This document shows positions 19,689-29,417 of a DNA stretch of 32,908 nt, piece by piece. How positions within the stretch are numbered: the stretch's first letter is position 1; each line of letters opens with the position of its first letter. This stretch comes from a virus. The DNA lies in IMG/VR virus record IMGVR_UViG_3300027852_001419, positions 1 through 32,908 of that record; one strand, given 5' to 3'. Made by a program: the position numbers and the translations under genes. A model generated the notes under the pieces. That model had not been told where the DNA came from and did no database searches. It saw only the letters and a list, made by a program, of their open reading frames with translations.

Positions 19689-21219
19689 CCTTGACCTCCT
19701 CAGGTTCGGTATCGGTGTCGTATTGCTTGCGCAGGTCTGCCTCTTGAGCCCGAGCTGCCAGAACGTCCTCATAGTCCCGGTCGCTGAACGCGCCCGAGAT
19801 GTCGTCCTTTGTGACAACGCCCATCTCATCGAGAACTGCATAGGCCTTGGCCGTTTTGAGGATTTCCGCCTCAGGTTTCGGAGAACCCTTCCACTCCGCT
19901 CGGCAGGCCGCCGCGCGGTTTCGATTGAAATTTTCCAGACCGCCCGGGAACGGAATTGATCCGCGTTGGATTTCTTCCTCAAGCCACGCCTCATAGTGGG
20001 CCTGACAGAACGGCGAGACGATGAACTTCCGGCGCTGTCGGGTGATCGGCCAGACCTCAGACACGGCGGCCCGGATCGTGGCATAGGACGCGCCCTCGTA
20101 GTCGCCTGTCGAGCTTTCGTAGGTCATGCCCATGCAGCGGGCCATTTCCATCAGTAGCGACTTGGAGAACTCCTTGTAAGCAGCCCCCGGATTTTTCGAG
20201 GACAGGAACTCCAACTCTTGGCCTGGGAAGGTGTGAACCACCCGCCCACCAACGCCAGCATCGATCTGGTTGTCGTCGTACCAGGCATCCTGCGTTGCAA
20301 ACCACTTGTCGATTAGAGGCGAACCTTCTGCGGCCGCCTTGTTTTGCTCCTGCGGTGTCATCAGACCCGCCATCGCCTCGCGTGTCAGTTCCGGCGATTT
20401 CAGGTTCACCGCGAACGCCGTCTGGATCAGCGATGCCACCAACGTGTTGTCGGCCAGCTGGTCAAACTGCTTGGCAACCCGCAGCACCGGCACCAGAGGC
20501 GACACACCACGCACCGCCCCAACCGGGCCCATGAAGTTGTGAACCACACGCGGGCGCCCGTACCGATCCCACATTGGGACCATCTGGGCCTCAAAGCTGA
20601 AAGCGGCCTCATCCTTTTTGCGAAGCACGGCGATGGGCATTCCATCCGGATCCAGTTGGATACCCGAAAATACTCGGCGCTCTTTTTCCGTCCGGTTCGC
20701 AATCATCGACGGCGGCAGCAAACGCACCTTCGTTTTCAGGCGGCAGCCAACTCGCTTCCGCAGAAGCGACTCCGAGAGAATTTCACCGTAGATCAGCCAA
20801 GACCGGAATGCCGTGTCCTGCATCATCGCAAACGACCGCTTGCCCTCGATGTCACATTCGCGCGGGGTATTTGCCCAGAGCTCAAAGCGGCGTTCAACGA
20901 GGTTGCGCCATTTCTGGGCATCTTCCTCGCTCATGCCGAACAGATCGTTCTCAGGCGCGCATTTCAAGCGCAGCCCCGTGCCTACCACATTGGCAACACA
21001 CTGATCGAACATGCCGGAAACCCAGCCACTGTTCTGCACCAGATCTTGCGCCCGGCCCGCAGCCACAGTCCATGCGGATGCGACATCGGACTTTGACGAA
21101 CGCAGCGCAGGGCGCCACTTCGCCATGATCCCGCTATTGCGGCCCGAGCGCATGTATTCCGCCGAGGGCTGAGGAACGGGTGCCGTCGAGCCCTTGAACA
21201 GATTGCCGAGAAAGCTCAT
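19681..21219 (-). CDS. B: Portal protein (lambda gpB family)
   Basis: A 512-residue lambda-type portal, the dodecameric ring through which DNA enters and leaves the head. It has an early DVASAWTVAAGRAQDLVQNSGW, VVGTGLRLKCAPE, SWLIYGEILSE, VRGVSPLVPVLRVAKQFDQL and the C-terminal YEGASYATIRAAVSEVWPITRQR, all typical of the family. Its start overlaps the terminase stop as TGATG. The C-terminal acidic tail probably faces the packaging motor. Confidence 0.94.
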   Translation of the reverse strand: MSFLGNLFKGSTAPVPQPSAEYMRSGRNSGIMAKWRPALRSSKSDVASAWTVAAGRAQDLVQNSGWVSGMFDQCVANVVGTGLRLKCAPENDLFGMSEEDAQKWRNLVERRFELWANTPRECDIEGKRSFAMMQDTAFRSWLIYGEILSESLLRKRVGCRLKTKVRLLPPSMIANRTEKERRVFSGIQLDPDGMPIAVLRKKDEAAFSFEAQMVPMWDRYGRPRVVHNFMGPVGAVRGVSPLVPVLRVAKQFDQLADNTLVASLIQTAFAVNLKSPELTREAMAGLMTPQEQNKAAAEGSPLIDKWFATQDAWYDDNQIDAGVGGRVVHTFPGQELEFLSSKNPGAAYKEFSKSLLMEMARCMGMTYESSTGDYEGASYATIRAAVSEVWPITRQRRKFIVSPFCQAHYEAWLEEEIQRGSIPFPGGLENFNRNRAAACRAEWKGSPKPEAEILKTAKAYAVLDEMGVVTKDDISGAFSDRDYEDVLAARAQEADLRKQYDTDTEPEEVKDG

Positions 21220-24200
21220 CAGCTCCCCTTTCGCTTAAACCGCCCCCCACCGGTCTGCACCTTGGGAGCTTTTCTGACTTCGGACGCAGCATCAGGCCCG
21301 AGCGCGTACGTGCGCTTGGTCCCTCGCGGAATTGTTTGGACGTTCAGGACGAACCCTGCGGCGGCGGCCAGCGCCTCGCAGTTGCCGACGATGATCGCCT
21401 TGCCGTTGCGACGTGCGATCAAGGTGCCGTTTGGAACCGTCACGCAATAGACCATCCCCGCGTAAGAAACGTTTGCAAACACGGGACTATTGTCGGCCCT
21501 GCGTAGATGTGCCTGCGGTGTCCTGATCTCGGAAACATGGAATTGATCGACCGTGTTCCCCGAAGCCCGCCCCCGAATGAGATAGGGTTTGGCCTTCCGG
21601 CGCGTGACTTTGCCACTCCGCCCAGACTTGATGAACAGCTCCTGCATATCGTCCGCAAGACGCCGACTGACGGTGGCATAGGAGCGGTGTGCACCCTGCA
21701 TCCATCCGTCGCCGAGAATTGCCGCGTCGACGAACCTCTCGATGAGATCAGGCGACCCAGCCCGAACAAAGGCTGGAACACGCTTGCCATATCTGCTGCT
21801 GCCTTCGTCATCCCAGCAATCCGACAGGGCTGCCGCGAGTTGTCGAGACGGAATCACAAACTGGCGGCCACCTTGAAGGCGATACGCCACACCCATGCGA
21901 GACAACAACGCTGCGATAAGGTCTGCCTTGGTACCGGGGCTCTGCGAAAGAACAACCATTGCATAGTTGCCCCGACGAGACACATGTCCCCCAGACACAA
22001 ACCAGCCAAGGAACTCGCACCAGTCCCCGGCATCGAACGAACGCACAGCCTCATAGAGCCGCCGCCCGTTCGTGCTTGGGACGTCATGCTCGGGGAGCAC
22101 AACCGTGTCATGGTGTTGACCCTCCCACCTAGCCGTCCGCTTAAGCGTGTTCCAGATGGTCAGATCCTTCGCCAAGGTGATCTTCGGCTTATCCTCTGCC
22201 GGGTTTCGCCGATATGTGACAAGCCGGTGGTTCGGCGTCACAAGAAGGTCAACCGACCTCCCCACAATCGAGACCATTTCTCCCTCGTGCCAACGCGATA
22301 CACTGTTCGTTGCAGCCTGATACTCGATGGTATCTCGATCCAAGTTGACCGACGCAAATCGCCCCTTGTGGGAGACAGCATCCGTCACCGGAAGCCAGCC
22401 GTCTTCTGTCAACAGCTCCGTCTCAGGGTCGAAGCAATCAAAGAAGTGGTTGTCCTTGCGGTTCTGAACCCAAGCTGGATTTGGGCTGTCGAGGGTGACC
22501 ACGCGGGTCTCTGACAACACCTGACGTGCATATTCTTCGTTGGCACTTTCATTCAGATGGAACGCGCCCGGCTCAGACATTGGCGTCTTGATCCGGCTGT
22601 GCACGAGGCTTTTGAAGAAGTCGGTATCCAGCATGGCCAGACCAATAGAATATTTTGACCGCTGACCTTCGTCGTCCACTTCGATCCGGCTCATCGTCAA
22701 AGGCGCGCCGCTTGGCCTACTGCGCCCCTTAGTGGGCGAAACCAGCCAATCGTATTGGTGCGCAAAGGCATAAACCTTGTGGGGCGAGCCCGCGTCTTTC
22801 TTGTTCGGTCGGAAACCAGCATCCACAAACACCTTAGTGATCTGCATACCCATCACCGGCGCCAAGAACACTTGGGCCAGATCGTCCCATACTTCCTCAC
22901 CTGCCGTGTTCCCCATCAGGAAACCACGGTCGACCAAGAAGCTGGTGCCAAGCCACCCGAAGCCGCGGATGACCCAGTAGATCCCGTTGGCCTGAACATC
23001 GGCGCCCATCACCAGATGAATGATATGCGGATCAAGGAACGTGTCTGTCGTTTTGGTCTTGCGCTTCAGGAAGGCACGCCATTCCGGCATGTCCCCCAAT
23101 GAGGCGCGCGTATACAGCTCGCCAAGATTGGCGTTGATGGCCGTCTGCATCCGGTTGGGCTCAAGAGACAGCCGCGCGCGATGAATACGCTCAGCCCGGA
23201 TCGACCAATTCACGAACGGCGAACAAAGACCCGAAGACCATTGAGAATACCGGCTGAAACCGGCAACCGGATCGCCTCGCTTGGCTTCCTCAATCGTCTG
23301 GCCCGGTGCAATCATGAAGCCTGAAACGTTCATGGCCGCTTTGGTCGCACCGTCTTTGTCATCCTCGATCACGCACCCATTGCTGGGACAGACCATATGG
23401 GCAGATGCGGCGGCCTCGGCAGCCGTGCCCTCGTCATCATAGACCAGGTGCTTGCCCATCGGGATGAAAGGCTCACCACAATGGGGGCAATCCCAAGCCC
23501 AATGGTGCCGCGTGCCCTCTTGGAACAGACGCCAGATTGGGCTCCCTACCTCCTCAGGGTCGGCAACTTTCCAGAACTCCAACCCGCTTACCGGATCAAC
23601 TTCGGTTTCTACGGACCCGTGGGATGGCGTTGAAATCGTGGCCGCCACGAAGTCGGCATAGGTATCGCCTCGAACCTCAAGCAGACCGAACGGATCACCC
23701 TGGCCCCCGATGTTGGAAACCATTTCGTCATATTCATCCAAGATACCCATCACCGCCGGAAAAGATTTCAGAGCCGACGAGGACCGCGCAGACACAAGCC
23801 GCACAGGCACGCCGTTGACGATTTTTGAGGTCAGCTTGTTCTTCTGACCCTGCAAAGTGCGGGGGGCCAAGTCAGGTGAATCGTCCAGCATCTCGGTCAG
23901 ACGTGGGCCGAACTGCTCCTTGTTGAACGTGTCTGTTGGGCCAGCATAGGCAACTGGCGCAGGCTTTTGAGCCAAACGGTGGCCCATGACATCAAGGATC
24001 GTTTCAGTCTTGCCTGACTGTGCCGAGGTGACCGCAATGCACGAGGTATACATGCCGCTGGCAATCGATCGAGCAAAGGGTGTCATATACGGCGTCAGGC
24101 TCGGATCACGTGGCCCCGGGTGCCCACTGGTGGGCGGATAGGACCGGTTGGCAGCGCCCCATTCGTCGGGCGTGACGCGCTTAGCCGGTCTTAAAAAGGT

Positions 24201-24266
24201 CGCCACCCTCTGCAAGAGCTCGGGCCGCCTGTTCGAATTTGTCGGCAAGTCGGGTTTGGCGGTCAT
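21219..24266 (-). CDS. A: Terminase large subunit (lambda GpA family) containing an intein
   Basis: A 1015-residue precursor; about 663 residues remain after splicing, normal for GpA. The ATPase has Walker A SAQSGKTE (about residues 81-88), Walker B GILDEYDEM, and a zinc-ribbon-like CPHCG...CPSNGC region. The nuclease domain has VFVDAGFRPNKKD and ends at RKDNHFFD, where the intein starts right after the conserved Asp, resuming with CEALAAAAG. I use ATG at 24266, which overlaps Nu1 by 86 bases with a weak GGAAG site; shorter starts (TTG/GTG near 24206-24215) are possible. It packages DNA into proheads and cuts cos. Confidence 0.92.
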   Translation of the reverse strand: MTAKPDLPTNSNRRPELLQRVATFLRPAKRVTPDEWGAANRSYPPTSGHPGPRDPSLTPYMTPFARSIASGMYTSCIAVTSAQSGKTETILDVMGHRLAQKPAPVAYAGPTDTFNKEQFGPRLTEMLDDSPDLAPRTLQGQKNKLTSKIVNGVPVRLVSARSSSALKSFPAVMGILDEYDEMVSNIGGQGDPFGLLEVRGDTYADFVAATISTPSHGSVETEVDPVSGLEFWKVADPEEVGSPIWRLFQEGTRHHWAWDCPHCGEPFIPMGKHLVYDDEGTAAEAAASAHMVCPSNGCVIEDDKDGATKAAMNVSGFMIAPGQTIEEAKRGDPVAGFSRYSQWSSGLCSPFVNWSIRAERIHRARLSLEPNRMQTAINANLGELYTRASLGDMPEWRAFLKRKTKTTDTFLDPHIIHLVMGADVQANGIYWVIRGFGWLGTSFLVDRGFLMGNTAGEEVWDDLAQVFLAPVMGMQITKVFVDAGFRPNKKDAGSPHKVYAFAHQYDWLVSPTKGRSRPSGAPLTMSRIEVDDEGQRSKYSIGLAMLDTDFFKSLVHSRIKTPMSEPGAFHLNESANEEYARQVLSETRVVTLDSPNPAWVQNRKDNHFFDCFDPETELLTEDGWLPVTDAVSHKGRFASVNLDRDTIEYQAATNSVSRWHEGEMVSIVGRSVDLLVTPNHRLVTYRRNPAEDKPKITLAKDLTIWNTLKRTARWEGQHHDTVVLPEHDVPSTNGRRLYEAVRSFDAGDWCEFLGWFVSGGHVSRRGNYAMVVLSQSPGTKADLIAALLSRMGVAYRLQGGRQFVIPSRQLAAALSDCWDDEGSSRYGKRVPAFVRAGSPDLIERFVDAAILGDGWMQGAHRSYATVSRRLADDMQELFIKSGRSGKVTRRKAKPYLIRGRASGNTVDQFHVSEIRTPQAHLRRADNSPVFANVSYAGMVYCVTVPNGTLIARRNGKAIIVGNCEALAAAAGFVLNVQTIPRGTKRTYALGPDAASEVRKAPKVQTGGGRFKRKGS
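21381..22436 (-). other. Intein (352 residues) in the terminase, Hint splicing domain plus LAGLIDADG-type endonuclease remnant
   Basis: It begins with Cys1 in CFDPETELLTEDGWLPV (block A), has block B in VDLLVTPNHRLVTY with the T-x-x-H motif, and closes with block F VYCVTVPNGTLIARR and terminal VGN, followed by extein Cys+1. The penultimate residue is Gly, not the usual His, although phage terminase inteins are known to tolerate this. The centre holds two LAGLIDADG-like helices: FLGWFVSGGHVS and FVDAAILGDGWMQG. The second keeps its acid (GDGW), the first has Gly where an acid is expected. It sits directly after the nuclease-domain Asp of the host protein. Confidence 0.9.
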
Positions 24267-24678
24267 GAACGTCGTCTTCCAACTTTCTCCGAAGGTCCAT
24301 GTCACGAGTGAAGCTGGCAGGCATCCCGGCCAGTTCATCCCGAACCTTCGCACTGATGAAATCCATAACCTCGTGGACCTGCTCGACAGGGATCAGTTCG
24401 CGCTTCTGGACAGCCAGGCGCAGGGCAATTTCCTCAGCCTTGGCGTCTTGGATGCGAGTTGCTGCTGCGCTCTTTGCAGATCGGCGCTCATCATCTTTGA
24501 GGGATCTAATATATCCTTGGACCACATCAACAAGCCGCCAGCGTCCACGGGCAACCTTGCTGACATAACCCATCTGTTCAAGTTTCCCGACCCAAACCGA
24601 ACTAACTTGAATGACTGAAGCAGCCTCTTTCGTTGAGACAACCAGATCACCGATGTCTTGCTTCTGGGTTTTTGCCAT
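24181..24678 (-). CDS. Nu1: Terminase small subunit (lambda Nu1 family)
   Basis: A 165-residue DNA-binding protein that recognises the packaging site. Residues about 10-60 are a MerR/Nu1-like winged helix: VVSTKEAASVIQVSSVWVGKLEQMG then GRWRLVDVVQGYI. Residues about 80-150 are a long helix, as in Nu1 dimerisation and A-binding regions. It ends KTG-stop and overlaps the terminase start. ATG at 24678 has GGTGAGG upstream. Binding site cos should lie in or near the gap just upstream. Confidence 0.9.
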   Translation of the reverse strand: MAKTQKQDIGDLVVSTKEAASVIQVSSVWVGKLEQMGYVSKVARGRWRLVDVVQGYIRSLKDDERRSAKSAAATRIQDAKAEEIALRLAVQKRELIPVEQVHEVMDFISAKVRDELAGMPASFTRDMDLRRKLEDDVHDRQTRLADKFEQAARALAEGGDLFKTG

Positions 24679-25348: not shown

Positions 25349-25726
25349 CTACCCCTTGAAGGGGTCTTTGATGACCACACCGCCACCGCTTGCCATGAGG
25401 ATGGGGCAAGCTGTCAGGGCGTGTTCGCTGTTGGTGTGACCGCGCCATGCGGTGACGTTGATCACCCCTGCCCCTTTGGGCGAGAGTTTGACGGGGATTG
25501 TGCCGCCCTTTGCGCGGGTGATCAGGATTTTGCCCAGATCGTCACCAGTCCCATGCTGTACCTTGATCTTCTCCCCATCCGTCAATCCGGACAGGTAAGC
25601 CCCGATGAAGGCCTTGGACATGCTGAACGAGATGATCGAGGCGCCGAGTTTGGATTTGCGCACCTTCATCTTGACCACAGGGCCGGTTGCGGTGGGGTCG
25701 TGGGCAATTGCGTCAGTGTAAGGCAT
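25349..25726 (-). CDS. Hypothetical phage protein
   Basis: A 125-residue soluble protein, basic in its first half (MKVRKSKLGASIISFSMSKAFIGAYL) and beta-like in the second (KILITRAKGGTIPVKLSPKGAGVINVTAW). No recognised domain. AAAGGA lies upstream of the ATG at 25726. It lies in the group of short genes between the Acb2/Tad1-like gene and the terminase and has the base composition of the late genes around it. Confidence 0.7.
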   Translation of the reverse strand: MPYTDAIAHDPTATGPVVKMKVRKSKLGASIISFSMSKAFIGAYLSGLTDGEKIKVQHGTGDDLGKILITRAKGGTIPVKLSPKGAGVINVTAWRGHTNSEHALTACPILMASGGGVVIKDPFKG

Positions 25727-25744
25727 GGGGGCGTTCCTTTCAGG

Positions 25745-26005
25745 TTAGGCGGTGATGTGGCGGACTGCGCGCATAATGGCATCTTCCGCGTGAGTGTTGG
25801 CCAGAGCGAGGTTGCGCCCACCGAACACAGCACCTTGATCTGGGGACGTGCCGCCGATCTCATGCAATTTGGCGATAAACGCAGCCCCGAGGTCTTTCAC
25901 TTCGACCATCAGTCGCTTTTCATCATCCGAGAGGACGCGATATTTGTGGCGGGCGGCGTTGTTGGCTGTGCGCTCGTCTGCGGCGCTATCAACTTCATGG
26001 GACAT
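25745..26005 (-). CDS. Acb2/Tad1-family anti-defence protein (cyclic-nucleotide sponge), probable
   Basis: An 86-residue protein. The pattern HKYRVLSDDEKRLMVEVKDLG, then a variable loop, then ALANTHAEDAIMRAVRHIT, agrees with the small two-helix proteins of the Acb2/Tad1 group: a Y-R-x-L-S start, a long first helix with a conserved Lys, and a second helix with A-x-T-x-x-E-x-A-x-M-x-A-V. Characterised members form hexamers that sequester CBASS and Thoeris signalling nucleotides and so protect the phage. ATG at 26005 has AAGGAG upstream. It is in the late operon rather than an early one. Assignment is by remembered pattern; binding residues cannot be verified here. Confidence 0.72.
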   Translation of the reverse strand: MSHEVDSAADERTANNAARHKYRVLSDDEKRLMVEVKDLGAAFIAKLHEIGGTSPDQGAVFGGRNLALANTHAEDAIMRAVRHITA

Positions 26006-26034
26006 TTGGTTCTCCTTGGTTTCCGTTACAGGGG

Positions 26035-26601
26035 TCAGTCCTTAGGCAACAAACGCCCAATCTCGTGACTGAGGCGTTCAGGCAGATCCCGTTGGACAAT
26101 GCTGGTGAATGCCTTGGCTGATTGATCACGAACCATTTCCTCGGGGATCGAGGGGCCGAGCTGCTTTTCGATTGGCAGGCTTTTCGCCGTGCTGCGGGTG
26201 AACACATGACCGTTGCCGACGTGTTTGCCGCTGCGGTGGTTTCCGGCGTAGATGAACGCGCCATCCATGCGGACCGATTTGCCCCACATCTTGACCTTCA
26301 CGCCGTAGCTGAACTGCTTGGCACCCATGGCGCGGAGCGACAGAGGCTTGCCGGTTGCGACCATCTCGGCCACCGGAACCCCGCCCGGCTTGGCCTGGTA
26401 AAGGCGGACGGTCTGTTTGACGATCCGGTATGGGATGGATGACTGCTTGGCGATAGCGCGAACCACAGCGGTGCGGGCCTTGCGGGCAGTGTGATTGACG
26501 GCACGGACCTGGGCCTTGTTGGCGCCGGTCTTCCCGATTACTGCCATGGCATTGCCATATCGGCCGAGCATCTCGTCACTTGGTTCGATGACCAGCTTCA
26601 T
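26035..26601 (-). CDS. Minor tail/tail completion protein Z-like (lambda gpZ family)
   Basis: A 188-residue basic protein. The plan fits the gpZ family: an N-terminal Ala/Arg-rich helical part (VNHTARKARTAVVRAIAKQ) followed by YRIVKQTVRLYQA, a middle with GAFIYAGN and HVFTRSTAKSLPIEKQLGPS, and a C-terminal helix RDLPERLSHEIGRLL. gpZ is needed to complete the tail end that joins the head. ATG at 26601 has GAGG upstream; a longer frame would run through the box array. Unlike in lambda it lies upstream of the terminase rather than after the head genes. Confidence 0.75.
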   Translation of the reverse strand: MKLVIEPSDEMLGRYGNAMAVIGKTGANKAQVRAVNHTARKARTAVVRAIAKQSSIPYRIVKQTVRLYQAKPGGVPVAEMVATGKPLSLRAMGAKQFSYGVKVKMWGKSVRMDGAFIYAGNHRSGKHVGNGHVFTRSTAKSLPIEKQLGPSIPEEMVRDQSAKAFTSIVQRDLPERLSHEIGRLLPKD

Positions 26602-26612
26602 GGCGAGGCCCT

Positions 26613-26663
26613 CATGTAAAGAAATCGGGCTTTTCTTTACATGCCGGACGCACATGTAAAGAA
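26613..26663. promoter_or_regulatory. Three alternating 11-bp boxes with 9-bp gaps (operator-like array or leader hairpin)
   Basis: CATGTAAAGAA occurs at 26613-26623 and 26653-26663, and its exact reverse complement TTCTTTACATG at 26633-26643. Both gaps are exactly 9 bp, so box centres lie 20 bp apart, about two helical turns. The array fills the space between the tRNA and the first late gene, ending 12 bp before its ATG. The first two boxes can also form a 12-bp stem with a 7-base loop in the late mRNA, next to the GAGG ribosome-binding site. Operator for a phage or host regulator is the favoured reading. Confidence 0.65.
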
Positions 26664-26673
26664 GCTAGGAACT

Positions 26674-26748
26674 TGGAGCGGGCAGCGGGGTTCGAACCCG
26701 CGACAATCGGCTTGGAAGGCCAGCGCTCTACCACTGAGCTACACCCGC
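26674..26748 (-). tRNA. tRNA-Gly (anticodon TCC)
   Basis: The minus strand folds as a full tRNA: acceptor GCGGGTG paired with TGCCCGC (two G-U type pairs), D arm GCTC...GAGC, anticodon loop CTTCCAA with anticodon TCC (reads GGA), T arm GCGGG-TTCGAAC-CCCGC, discriminator T and an encoded CCA (26676-26674). The anticodon stem is weak: C27 faces A43 and T28 faces G42, leaving three Watson-Crick pairs. It lies inside a phage-gene region, between an exported-protein gene and the late operon. It could supplement a rare glycine codon or be an att-associated copy. Confidence 0.93.
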
Positions 26749-27874: not shown

Positions 27875-28106
27875 TTTCAATTTTTCCTGGGTAAATTTGC
27901 TGACTGGCCGTGTCGGCACCCCCAAGAACAGAACTGAGGCTCGCTTGTAAACGATCTAATAGTCCAAAGTCCGGCCCCCATATGCGGCCATTCTCGTCGC
28001 TTATCGGATACCTACGAGGAAATACCGTTGGTTTAGCGCGCCTTTCACTCTGTTCCCCTACACCCGGGAGGGAACGCTGACTGTGAGGAGCGCTTAAGGC
28101 GATCAA
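27867..28106 (-). CDS. Small protein within Panacea operon, TTG start (tentative)
   Basis: An open frame of 79 codons that fits the gap between two better-supported genes exactly: its TTG start overlaps the upstream stop (TTGA) and its TGA lies eight bases inside the next gene. The product is soluble, basic at the N-terminus (RRAKPTVFPRRYP) and ends DFGLLDRLQASLSSVLGG plus a polar tail. The ribosome-binding site is poor (AGG only), so translation would depend on coupling. Coding status is uncertain. Confidence 0.45.
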   Translation of the reverse strand: MIALSAPHSQRSLPGVGEQSERRAKPTVFPRRYPISDENGRIWGPDFGLLDRLQASLSSVLGGADTASQQIYPGKIENV

Positions 28107-28516
28107 CTACCTATCGCAGTTCTGCCTGCCTCAATAACAGGCACGACCTCTTGCCCAAACCCCTTTTCCGCAAACCCGTTAAAGACCCCTCGTAAAACGA
28201 AAATCGTGATCACGGCAATCGCAGCAATGGGGGCACCGAATATTGCGATCTGTGCCTGGCCGGAAAATGTTTCCTTTTCTGCCAGTCTAACAACGGCAAC
28301 CATAGCCATGAGGTACACGCTCATGAAACCCACCACCCCAACTGCAAAGCCATAGGCGGTTTGTCGAAGCATGCGCCGCTGGTTCTCACTTGCAACTCTT
28401 GCTTCTTTCCACGCGGCATCTGCTGCGAGTGAGCGGTATTCTGCATCTTGCTCAGCCGCTGACGGCTTTTCAGGAATATCAAGACCAGAAGGCAGCAGCG
28501 TGATGTCGTCAGACAT
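28103..28516 (-). CDS. Two-segment membrane protein paired with Panacea-domain protein (candidate toxin)
   Basis: A 137-residue protein with a helical cytosolic N-terminus (EQDAEYRSLAADAAWKEARV) and two membrane segments at about residues 52-75 and 90-112, then an amphipathic tail. The ATG at 28516 lies inside the end of the Panacea gene (8-base overlap). Panacea-domain antitoxins are known to be encoded beside very different toxins, several of them membrane-active, so this is the best toxin candidate. A structural or accessory role cannot be ruled out. Confidence 0.7.
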   Translation of the reverse strand: MSDDITLLPSGLDIPEKPSAAEQDAEYRSLAADAAWKEARVASENQRRMLRQTAYGFAVGVVGFMSVYLMAMVAVVRLAEKETFSGQAQIAIFGAPIAAIAVITIFVLRGVFNGFAEKGFGQEVVPVIEAGRTAIGS

Positions 28517-29036
28517 TTGCCCCCTCGTTCGCCTTTCGACGCTTGTCTTCGTAGTGCTGCTGAATGACGCTATCAAGAATGCGCGCGTAATTGCCGCCCT
28601 TTCGTGTGGCAATTTCCCATGGACCACCAGGCTCATGGGTTATTTCTGAAAGCTGAAACCCGCTCAAATGGCCGTAGATTCCCCAAATTTCGCCCAAAAG
28701 CTGATTAACGTCTGGGGCGATTGGATTATCCACAACTGGAACGGTCCGCACCACGTTGACCCCTTGTGGGCGAAATGCGTTGTAAACTTCAGGGATTACC
28801 GGGCCATATTGCCAAGCTTCAATTCTGTTTGTGAACAAGGGGGATTTGCGCACTTCTAAATGCCACCCATGAGCAATATAGGTCAGCTTGAGTAGCGTCA
28901 TGATGGACAGAGTCTTCCCCTCCGCGTGAGCGCGGTCAACAAACCAGTTGGCTATTGTTTTCGCGTTATAGGGCACTGAATCGCTTTCCTCTCGTAACGC
29001 TATATAGGCATTCCGGTTGGATTTGTGAATGTTCAT
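28509..29036 (-). CDS. Panacea-domain (SocA/DUF4065-like) antitoxin-type protein
   Basis: A 175-residue protein. It carries the family signature: a helix ANWFVDRAHAEGKTLSIMTLLKLTYIAHGW (read in two parts), then LFTNRIEAWQYGPVIPEVYNAF, the W-x-x-G-P-V-I-P-x-V-Y motif typical of SocA/Panacea proteins. SocA is a ClpXP adaptor and antitoxin in Caulobacter; Panacea proteins neutralise diverse toxins. I use ATG at 29036 with GGAG five bases upstream; an open frame continues 93 codons upstream without a good start. It heads a four-gene overlapping operon, the usual place of an antitoxin. Confidence 0.88.
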   Translation of the reverse strand: MNIHKSNRNAYIALREESDSVPYNAKTIANWFVDRAHAEGKTLSIMTLLKLTYIAHGWHLEVRKSPLFTNRIEAWQYGPVIPEVYNAFRPQGVNVVRTVPVVDNPIAPDVNQLLGEIWGIYGHLSGFQLSEITHEPGGPWEIATRKGGNYARILDSVIQQHYEDKRRKANEGANV

Positions 29037-29417
29037 TCCCTCTCCGCGTTCAGTATGAGTGTCCCAAAAGTAATCAAGAGCGAAAACGCGACCGCTTTCC
29101 AGAACTTGCCGAGCCGAGCAGTCCAGGTCGAATTTACAGAACTCAGCCACCACTGTCGCTCTGGACCCACTTGAGATCTTGGCTGACGTCACGATTTCCG
29201 ACGATTCGGTAAAAAGTGGCGAAACGCCGCACTCACAGGCAGGCGTACTACGTTTTTGTAGAGTGCTTAGTCGCGACAAACACAACATGTTGAACACGCG
29301 ACAGGTTACCCCCACGGCAATCAGTTATCCACATGGGGGTGTTAGTAACTCCTTAACCAAGCGGAGACTGAGATACTCACGGCATTGGGATGCGCCAGAC
29401 TTAGGAAGGAACTTGGG
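29037..29417. promoter_or_regulatory. Divergent intergenic region between Panacea operon and plus-strand gene
   Basis: A 381-base region without a supported gene. Its left part must hold the Panacea operon promoter, though no strong -35/-10 pair was seen. Its right part contains a perfect DnaA box (TTATCCACA, 29325-29333) lying inside the arms of an inverted repeat ACCCCCA (29308-29314)/TGGGGGT (29334-29340), then a CtrA-like promoter listed separately. Short frames on either strand here lack ribosome-binding sites. Confidence 0.55.
29342..29377 (+). promoter_or_regulatory. CtrA-type promoter for 29418 gene
   Basis: TTAG-N7-TTAA at 29342-29356 differs by one base from the CtrA consensus TTAA-N7-TTAA. 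GATACT at 29372-29377, 15 bases past the second half-site, can serve as -10. The layout, with the activator site over the -35, is that of CtrA-activated promoters in alphaproteobacteria, and it is repeated with the same spacing upstream of the next gene. Transcript start would be near 29384. Confidence 0.55.

Follow-up and report, generated by a model that had tools for sequence, protein, structure and literature searches.

The window analysed here is the 32,908-base IMG/VR virus record taken at its full length. In minus-strand order it carries a tRNA-Gly, a GPZ-type tail-completion or neck gene, an acb2-like gene, two genes of unknown function (125 and 126 aa), a 54-aa ORF and the terminase subunits TerS and TerL, followed by the portal, head protease, major head protein, contractile-tail, P2-like baseplate, tape measure and endolysin genes. 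The acb2-like gene (25745..26005, minus strand) is thus the second gene of the head operon of a myovirus-type phage or prophage. It begins with ATG, has an AAGGAG ribosome-binding site 6 nt upstream, and encodes an 86-residue protein with a PF24729 hairpin over residues 21-85. The preceding gene (26035..26655, minus), whose stop lies 29 nt away and whose start may be internal, encodes a minor tail protein Z or tail-completion (neck) protein (PF06763, 45 bits; phrog_27, E 1.9e-27). The 125-aa gene that follows (25349..25726, minus) begins 18 nt after the acb2-like stop, and its product matched no Pfam, PHROG or NCBIfam family. The terminase small subunit (24181..24678, minus; phrog_57, E 1.1e-14) belongs to the same operon, and the 1044-aa large subunit (21219..24353, minus; phrog_15, E 1.4e-129) is next. 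Relatives of the neck, 125-aa, TerS, major capsid and portal proteins were sought in IMG/VR, and none were found.

The large terminase subunit contains an intein-like insertion from about residue 640 (CFDPETELLTEDGWLPV...), which weakly matches thymidylate synthase and ribonucleotide reductase phage families; those families probably include inteins. A tRNA-Gly(TCC) with encoded CCA (26674-26748, minus) immediately precedes the first head-operon gene and is followed by the repeats TTCTTTACATG, CATGTAAAGAA and TTTCTTTACATG (region 26601-26748, minus), and this tract is a possible attachment site or late promoter/operator. At 28106-29315 (minus), a SocA/Panacea-domain antitoxin-like gene (PF13274, 67.9 bits) overlaps a gene for a likely membrane protein of 177 aa, possibly forming a toxin-antitoxin or defense pair. 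An enoyl-CoA hydratase-like gene (1-609, minus) occupies the left edge beyond the endolysin gene, and this end of the window may reach the host chromosome.

An earlier note, made from the letters of this DNA, had proposed an 86-residue protein at this position with both ends in the Acb2/Tad1 pattern. The protein is upheld by its ribosome-binding site, its relatives and a low dN/dS (about 0.1-0.4 for the most closely related pairs): the ORF is under purifying selection and is a real gene. All of the end motifs are present as well, namely the Y-R-x-L-S opening, a Lys in the first helix and an A-x-T-x-x-E-x-A-x-M-x-A-V second helix. We do not favor the plus-strand ORF at 25421-26068 as a true gene, because the family matches and low dN/dS belong to the minus-strand frame; the antisense frame is open in relatives of the acb2-like gene too, and is commonly so in such sequences.

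Profile searches place the protein in a known family. Residues 21-85 match the Pfam Acb2_Tad1_hairpin model (PF24729) with 58.6 bits (E 7.1e-16), well above the cut-off of 27 bits, and the established members T4 Vs.4 and PaMx35 Acb2 score 71.4 and 66.1 bits; the search proposed in the earlier note thus gave a clear match. The protein also matches PHROG 717 (E 5e-4), the source of the Vs.4 homologs used by Jenson et al. (PMC10097602). Among the best matches in a viral library, 8/9 are named Acb2/Tad1 hairpin protein, and no NCBIfam or PADLOC model matched. Relatives are encoded at 14 IMG/VR and 19 genome loci. A single-sequence phmmer search of the PDB gave chance matches only, and an alignment profile was required; the profile built on 31 relatives placed Acb2 first (8h2j, E 4e-4), followed by Vs.4 (7uq2, 0.024) and Tad1 (0.06-0.09), with only two Acb2 chains falling below E 0.001.

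Structure prediction agrees. The AlphaFold model, built on the same 31 relatives, consists of a short N-terminal part and two long antiparallel helices (residues 27-51 and 64-85; pLDDT mostly >90), which is the helical hairpin that the earlier note had anticipated. When the predicted hairpin was compared with 350,542 PDB chains using Foldseek, ranks 1-6 were all Acb2 or Vs.4. The best match was Acb2 8h2x (probability 0.96), with Vs.4 7uq2 also among the top, at E-values >0.1, as the fold is a short hairpin. The profile and the model together mark the protein as a genuine member of the Acb2 family and an expected addition to it.

The binding pocket is likewise retained. In Vs.4, cGAMP is contacted by Y8, H11, K23, R79 and F82; the hexamer interface is formed by L29, A66, A73 and A77; and the substitutions S74N, T12I and A77I are damaging (PMC10097602), while T68M reduces binding (PMC12657230). 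Tyr22-Arg23 of the 86-residue protein (codons 22-23, 25937..25942, minus) place Tyr22 at the cGAMP-stacking Tyr8 of Vs.4 and Tyr11 of Acb2, and Lys37 (codon 37, 25895..25897, minus) aligns with the cGAMP-contacting Lys23 and Lys26. The second helix and stop (codons 64-86, 25745..25816, minus) contain Arg64, Thr71, Ala69/Ala76/Ala80 and Arg82, with T71 and R82 aligned to Thr68 and Arg79 of Vs.4. The cGAMP pocket residues Y8, K23 and R79 of Vs.4 are therefore represented by Y22, K37 and R82, and Y11/K26/T74/R85 of Acb2 by Y22/K37/T71/R82. In a comparison of 14 family members, the pocket Tyr, Lys and Thr are invariant and the Arg position is filled by Arg or Lys. At the sites damaged in Vs.4 (S74, T12, A77), the protein has I77, S26 and A80, and at the interface sites (L29, A66, A73, A77) it has F43, A69, A76 and A80, a set compatible with a homohexamer. 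Arg67 of Acb2, a residue important for trinucleotide binding, aligns with R64, and R64 is invariant in 31/31 sequences of the subfamily alignment. H11 and F82 of Vs.4 are replaced here by Leu25 and Thr85; this counts against the Acb2-sponge reading without being decisive, and the two residues do not define the family, because PaMx35 Acb2, a natural anti-CBASS homolog (PMC12043709), lacks both as well (Leu14 and Ala88). In one relative (L008:8001-8255), Asp replaces the pocket Tyr that is invariant elsewhere (RHTDRTLS), and this protein may be a natural pocket-dead variant.

Comparison with characterized proteins shows how far the likeness extends. Acb2 of PaMx33/PaMx35/PaP2 (8h2j, 8h2x), the best PDB match by both profile and fold, has the common PF24729 hairpin, the YRxLS opening and a similar size, at 24% identity over the structural alignment; however, 10 residues precede its YR motif against about 20 here, and its interface residues are Gly/Ile, where the 86-residue protein has Ala, like Vs.4. 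T4 Vs.4 (7uq2) is about 19% identical, yet its hairpin domain, Y8, K23, R79, T68 and interface residues A66/A73/A77 are all kept; F82 and H11 are not. The Acb2 proteins of B3-like Pseudomonas phages (e.g., Rashabar, vB_PaeS_AV002) have the same domain in an unrelated phage, without the conserved N-terminal segment described below. A further Pseudomonas phage Acb2 homolog (L069:1474-1800, MK511064) bears the annotation 'NAD/FAD-utilizing enzyme', which is probably wrong.

The loop between the helices, at about residues 51-63, had been described as Gly-rich and of greater length. Five Gly do occur in it, but it is shorter than in the characterized proteins: the PF24729 model is spanned by 65 residues here versus 77 in T4 Vs.4 and 80 in PaMx35 Acb2. 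Its length varies within the subfamily: some members have almost no loop, others one longer than here. Leaving aside the first four residues of the protein, no part is less conserved than the loop (1.71 bits/column).

Profile, fold and pocket residues all assign the protein to the hairpin family, which makes a cyclic-nucleotide sponge the most likely function. We consider it very probable that the protein is an Acb2-type sponge, with its hexamer, ligands and inhibition of CBASS extrapolated from Acb2 and Vs.4.

What sets the protein apart is its N-terminal segment VDSAADERTANNAARH (codons 5-20, 25946..25993, minus), which has no counterpart in PaMx35 Acb2 or T4 Vs.4. Its consensus across 31 proteins is VDSxSDxRTxNNxxRH (residues 5-20), with S7, R12, N15, R19 and H20 invariant, and it is conserved to the same degree as the helices (on average 3.49 bits of information per column, with 3.2 and 3.54 in the two helices). 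Relatives sharing the segment are 43-76% identical to the 86-residue protein in best segments. The segment is an unexplained difference from Acb2 and counts against a plain Acb2 sponge. Its conservation and its absence from PaMx35 Acb2 and Vs.4 lend some weight to a distinct subclass of Acb2-derived sponge, in which the segment would alter the ligand, for example as a pocket cap or by conferring specificity for trinucleotides or another messenger; on the other hand, it has low confidence in the AlphaFold monomer (pLDDT <50) and may equally serve folding or packing alone. We regard this subclass as a tentative possibility, one that refines the Acb2-sponge explanation and is not exclusive of it. 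A bolder form, which we think unlikely, is that the alphaproteobacterial prophage subfamily constitutes a separate sponge class whose N-terminal segment joins or closes the pocket and whose ligand range is unlike that of Acb2 and Vs.4. Examples of what it might then take up are cyclic trinucleotides such as those of HORMA/NucC CBASS, or a messenger that no sponge is yet known to bind.

The subfamily occurs mainly in alphaproteobacterial prophages, many in Rhodobacteraceae-type hosts, and the hosts of the 31 aligned proteins, where known, are nearly all alphaproteobacterial genomes. The gene's surroundings vary widely. Among the 64-76% identical relatives, some genes follow major head genes (L003, L023), some precede terminase (L009, L012, as does that of L031 at 48% identity) and others adjoin genes for ssDNA-binding proteins, methyltransferases or integrases (L013, L011, L025). 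More distant relatives lie between portal and head morphogenesis genes (L028-L030, L036, L038) or near recT (L018). In Sinorhizobium phage Aussie, a 49% identical relative is encoded between head-tail adaptor and stopper. The acb2-like gene moves independently among unrelated phages, in late and early positions.

This mobility bears on whether the protein could be part of the particle. Its place between the tail-completion/neck and terminase genes, like that of the Aussie relative, would suit a hairpin-fold virion or head-assembly protein (e.g., a chaperone) that keeps the family fold without nucleotide binding, and the earlier note had suggested supply in or with the virion. A virion component would be expected to keep constant structural neighbors across related phages, yet the 64-76% identical relatives have no neighbor homologous to window genes over the roughly 8-10 kb around them, insofar as the available sequence extends that far, and sit late and early in unrelated phages, beside the ssDNA-binding, methyltransferase and integrase genes noted above; the sole neighbor matches are weak and come from more distant loci (L014, L034, L037). 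With no partner kept across close relatives, the gene is unlikely to encode a virion part. The relative near recT, the occurrence of known-type Acb2 genes in head clusters too, and the ranking of the nucleotide-pocket residues among the most conserved positions point the same way. We reject a virion or packaging role, which we judge very improbable, and the suggestion of supply with the particle is not supported.

A Tad1-type anti-Thoeris sponge for cyclic ADP-ribose variants is scarcely credible: Tad1 (7uav, 8kbh) has the C-terminal PF24729 hairpin in common, and the C-terminal helix here aligns weakly (E 0.06-0.09) with Tad1 SRENACALTHVEEALMW, but in Tad1 a four-stranded N-terminal antiparallel beta-sheet precedes the two-helix hairpin and the gcADPR pocket is built from loops and the C-terminal tail (PMC12043709), whereas here only about 20 residues precede the hairpin, no sheet is predicted by AlphaFold and the first helix matches Acb2. 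Because the N-terminal beta-domain is missing, the Acb2/Tad1-like identity proposed earlier stands for the hairpin family, on profile, fold and pocket, and not for Tad1 proper.

Returning to the Acb2-type sponge, the late-operon position to which the earlier note drew attention is real, but it is not special. In the B3-like phages, acb2 also lies in the head cluster, between the major capsid gene, which it follows at a short distance, and the head-tail adaptor, and Vibrio phage D79 has a known-type Acb2 gene between its portal and capsid genes; with Aussie, the neighborhoods in Rashabar, AV002 and D79 rule out late position as a novelty and make it ordinary for the family. Other members are placed differently: PaMx35 acb2 ends a replication gene cluster, unlike the gene in this head operon, and in T4 the Vs.4 gene is found between tk and denV, where small accessory genes cluster. 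From its location within the head operon, the acb2-like gene should be expressed together with the late genes. Late expression is thus probable and would mean that protection begins late in infection, a point that we count against the Acb2-sponge reading.

By analogy with Acb2 and Vs.4, the hairpin protomers would most likely assemble into a hexamer and bind cyclic dinucleotides between protomer pairs, with Tyr22 stacking on the base and Lys37 and Arg82 contacting the phosphates; cyclic trinucleotides might be bound in a separate site. Such a sponge would remove the signal with which a CBASS cyclase raises the alarm; effectors, for example a phospholipase or NucC, would then not be triggered and the phage could finish its cycle.

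Candidate targets occur in some carrier genomes. SMODS cyclases above the Pfam cut-off were detected in 5/17 genomes with prophage relatives versus 0/23 class members (G048-G070; Fisher p 0.009), a co-occurrence that is only suggestive because the sample is small and there is no control for phylogeny, genome size or prophage load. A larger search for CBASS-type cyclases gave 7/289; the first look was less sensitive and had missed G018. The Sphingobium scionense genome, which carries relative L038, encodes an intact TRIP13-HORMA-HORMA-cyclase-NucC CBASS (L066:2644-6149). CBASS of this HORMA/TRIP13/cyclase/NucC type signals with cyclic triadenylate. Cyclic triadenylate is a ligand of Acb2 (PMC12043709). 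The Sphingobium scionense system thus fits a sponge for cyclic tri- or dinucleotides, and action of the 86-residue protein on it is conjecture.

These results add to the Acb2 sponge family a divergent group found chiefly in alphaproteobacterial prophages. The conserved N-terminal segment offers a concrete, testable contrast to the solved Acb2 structures. In other respects the gene is an ordinary member of its family: its scattered, accessory occurrence in unrelated phages and its movement between late and early positions are as expected for a self-contained counter-defense gene.
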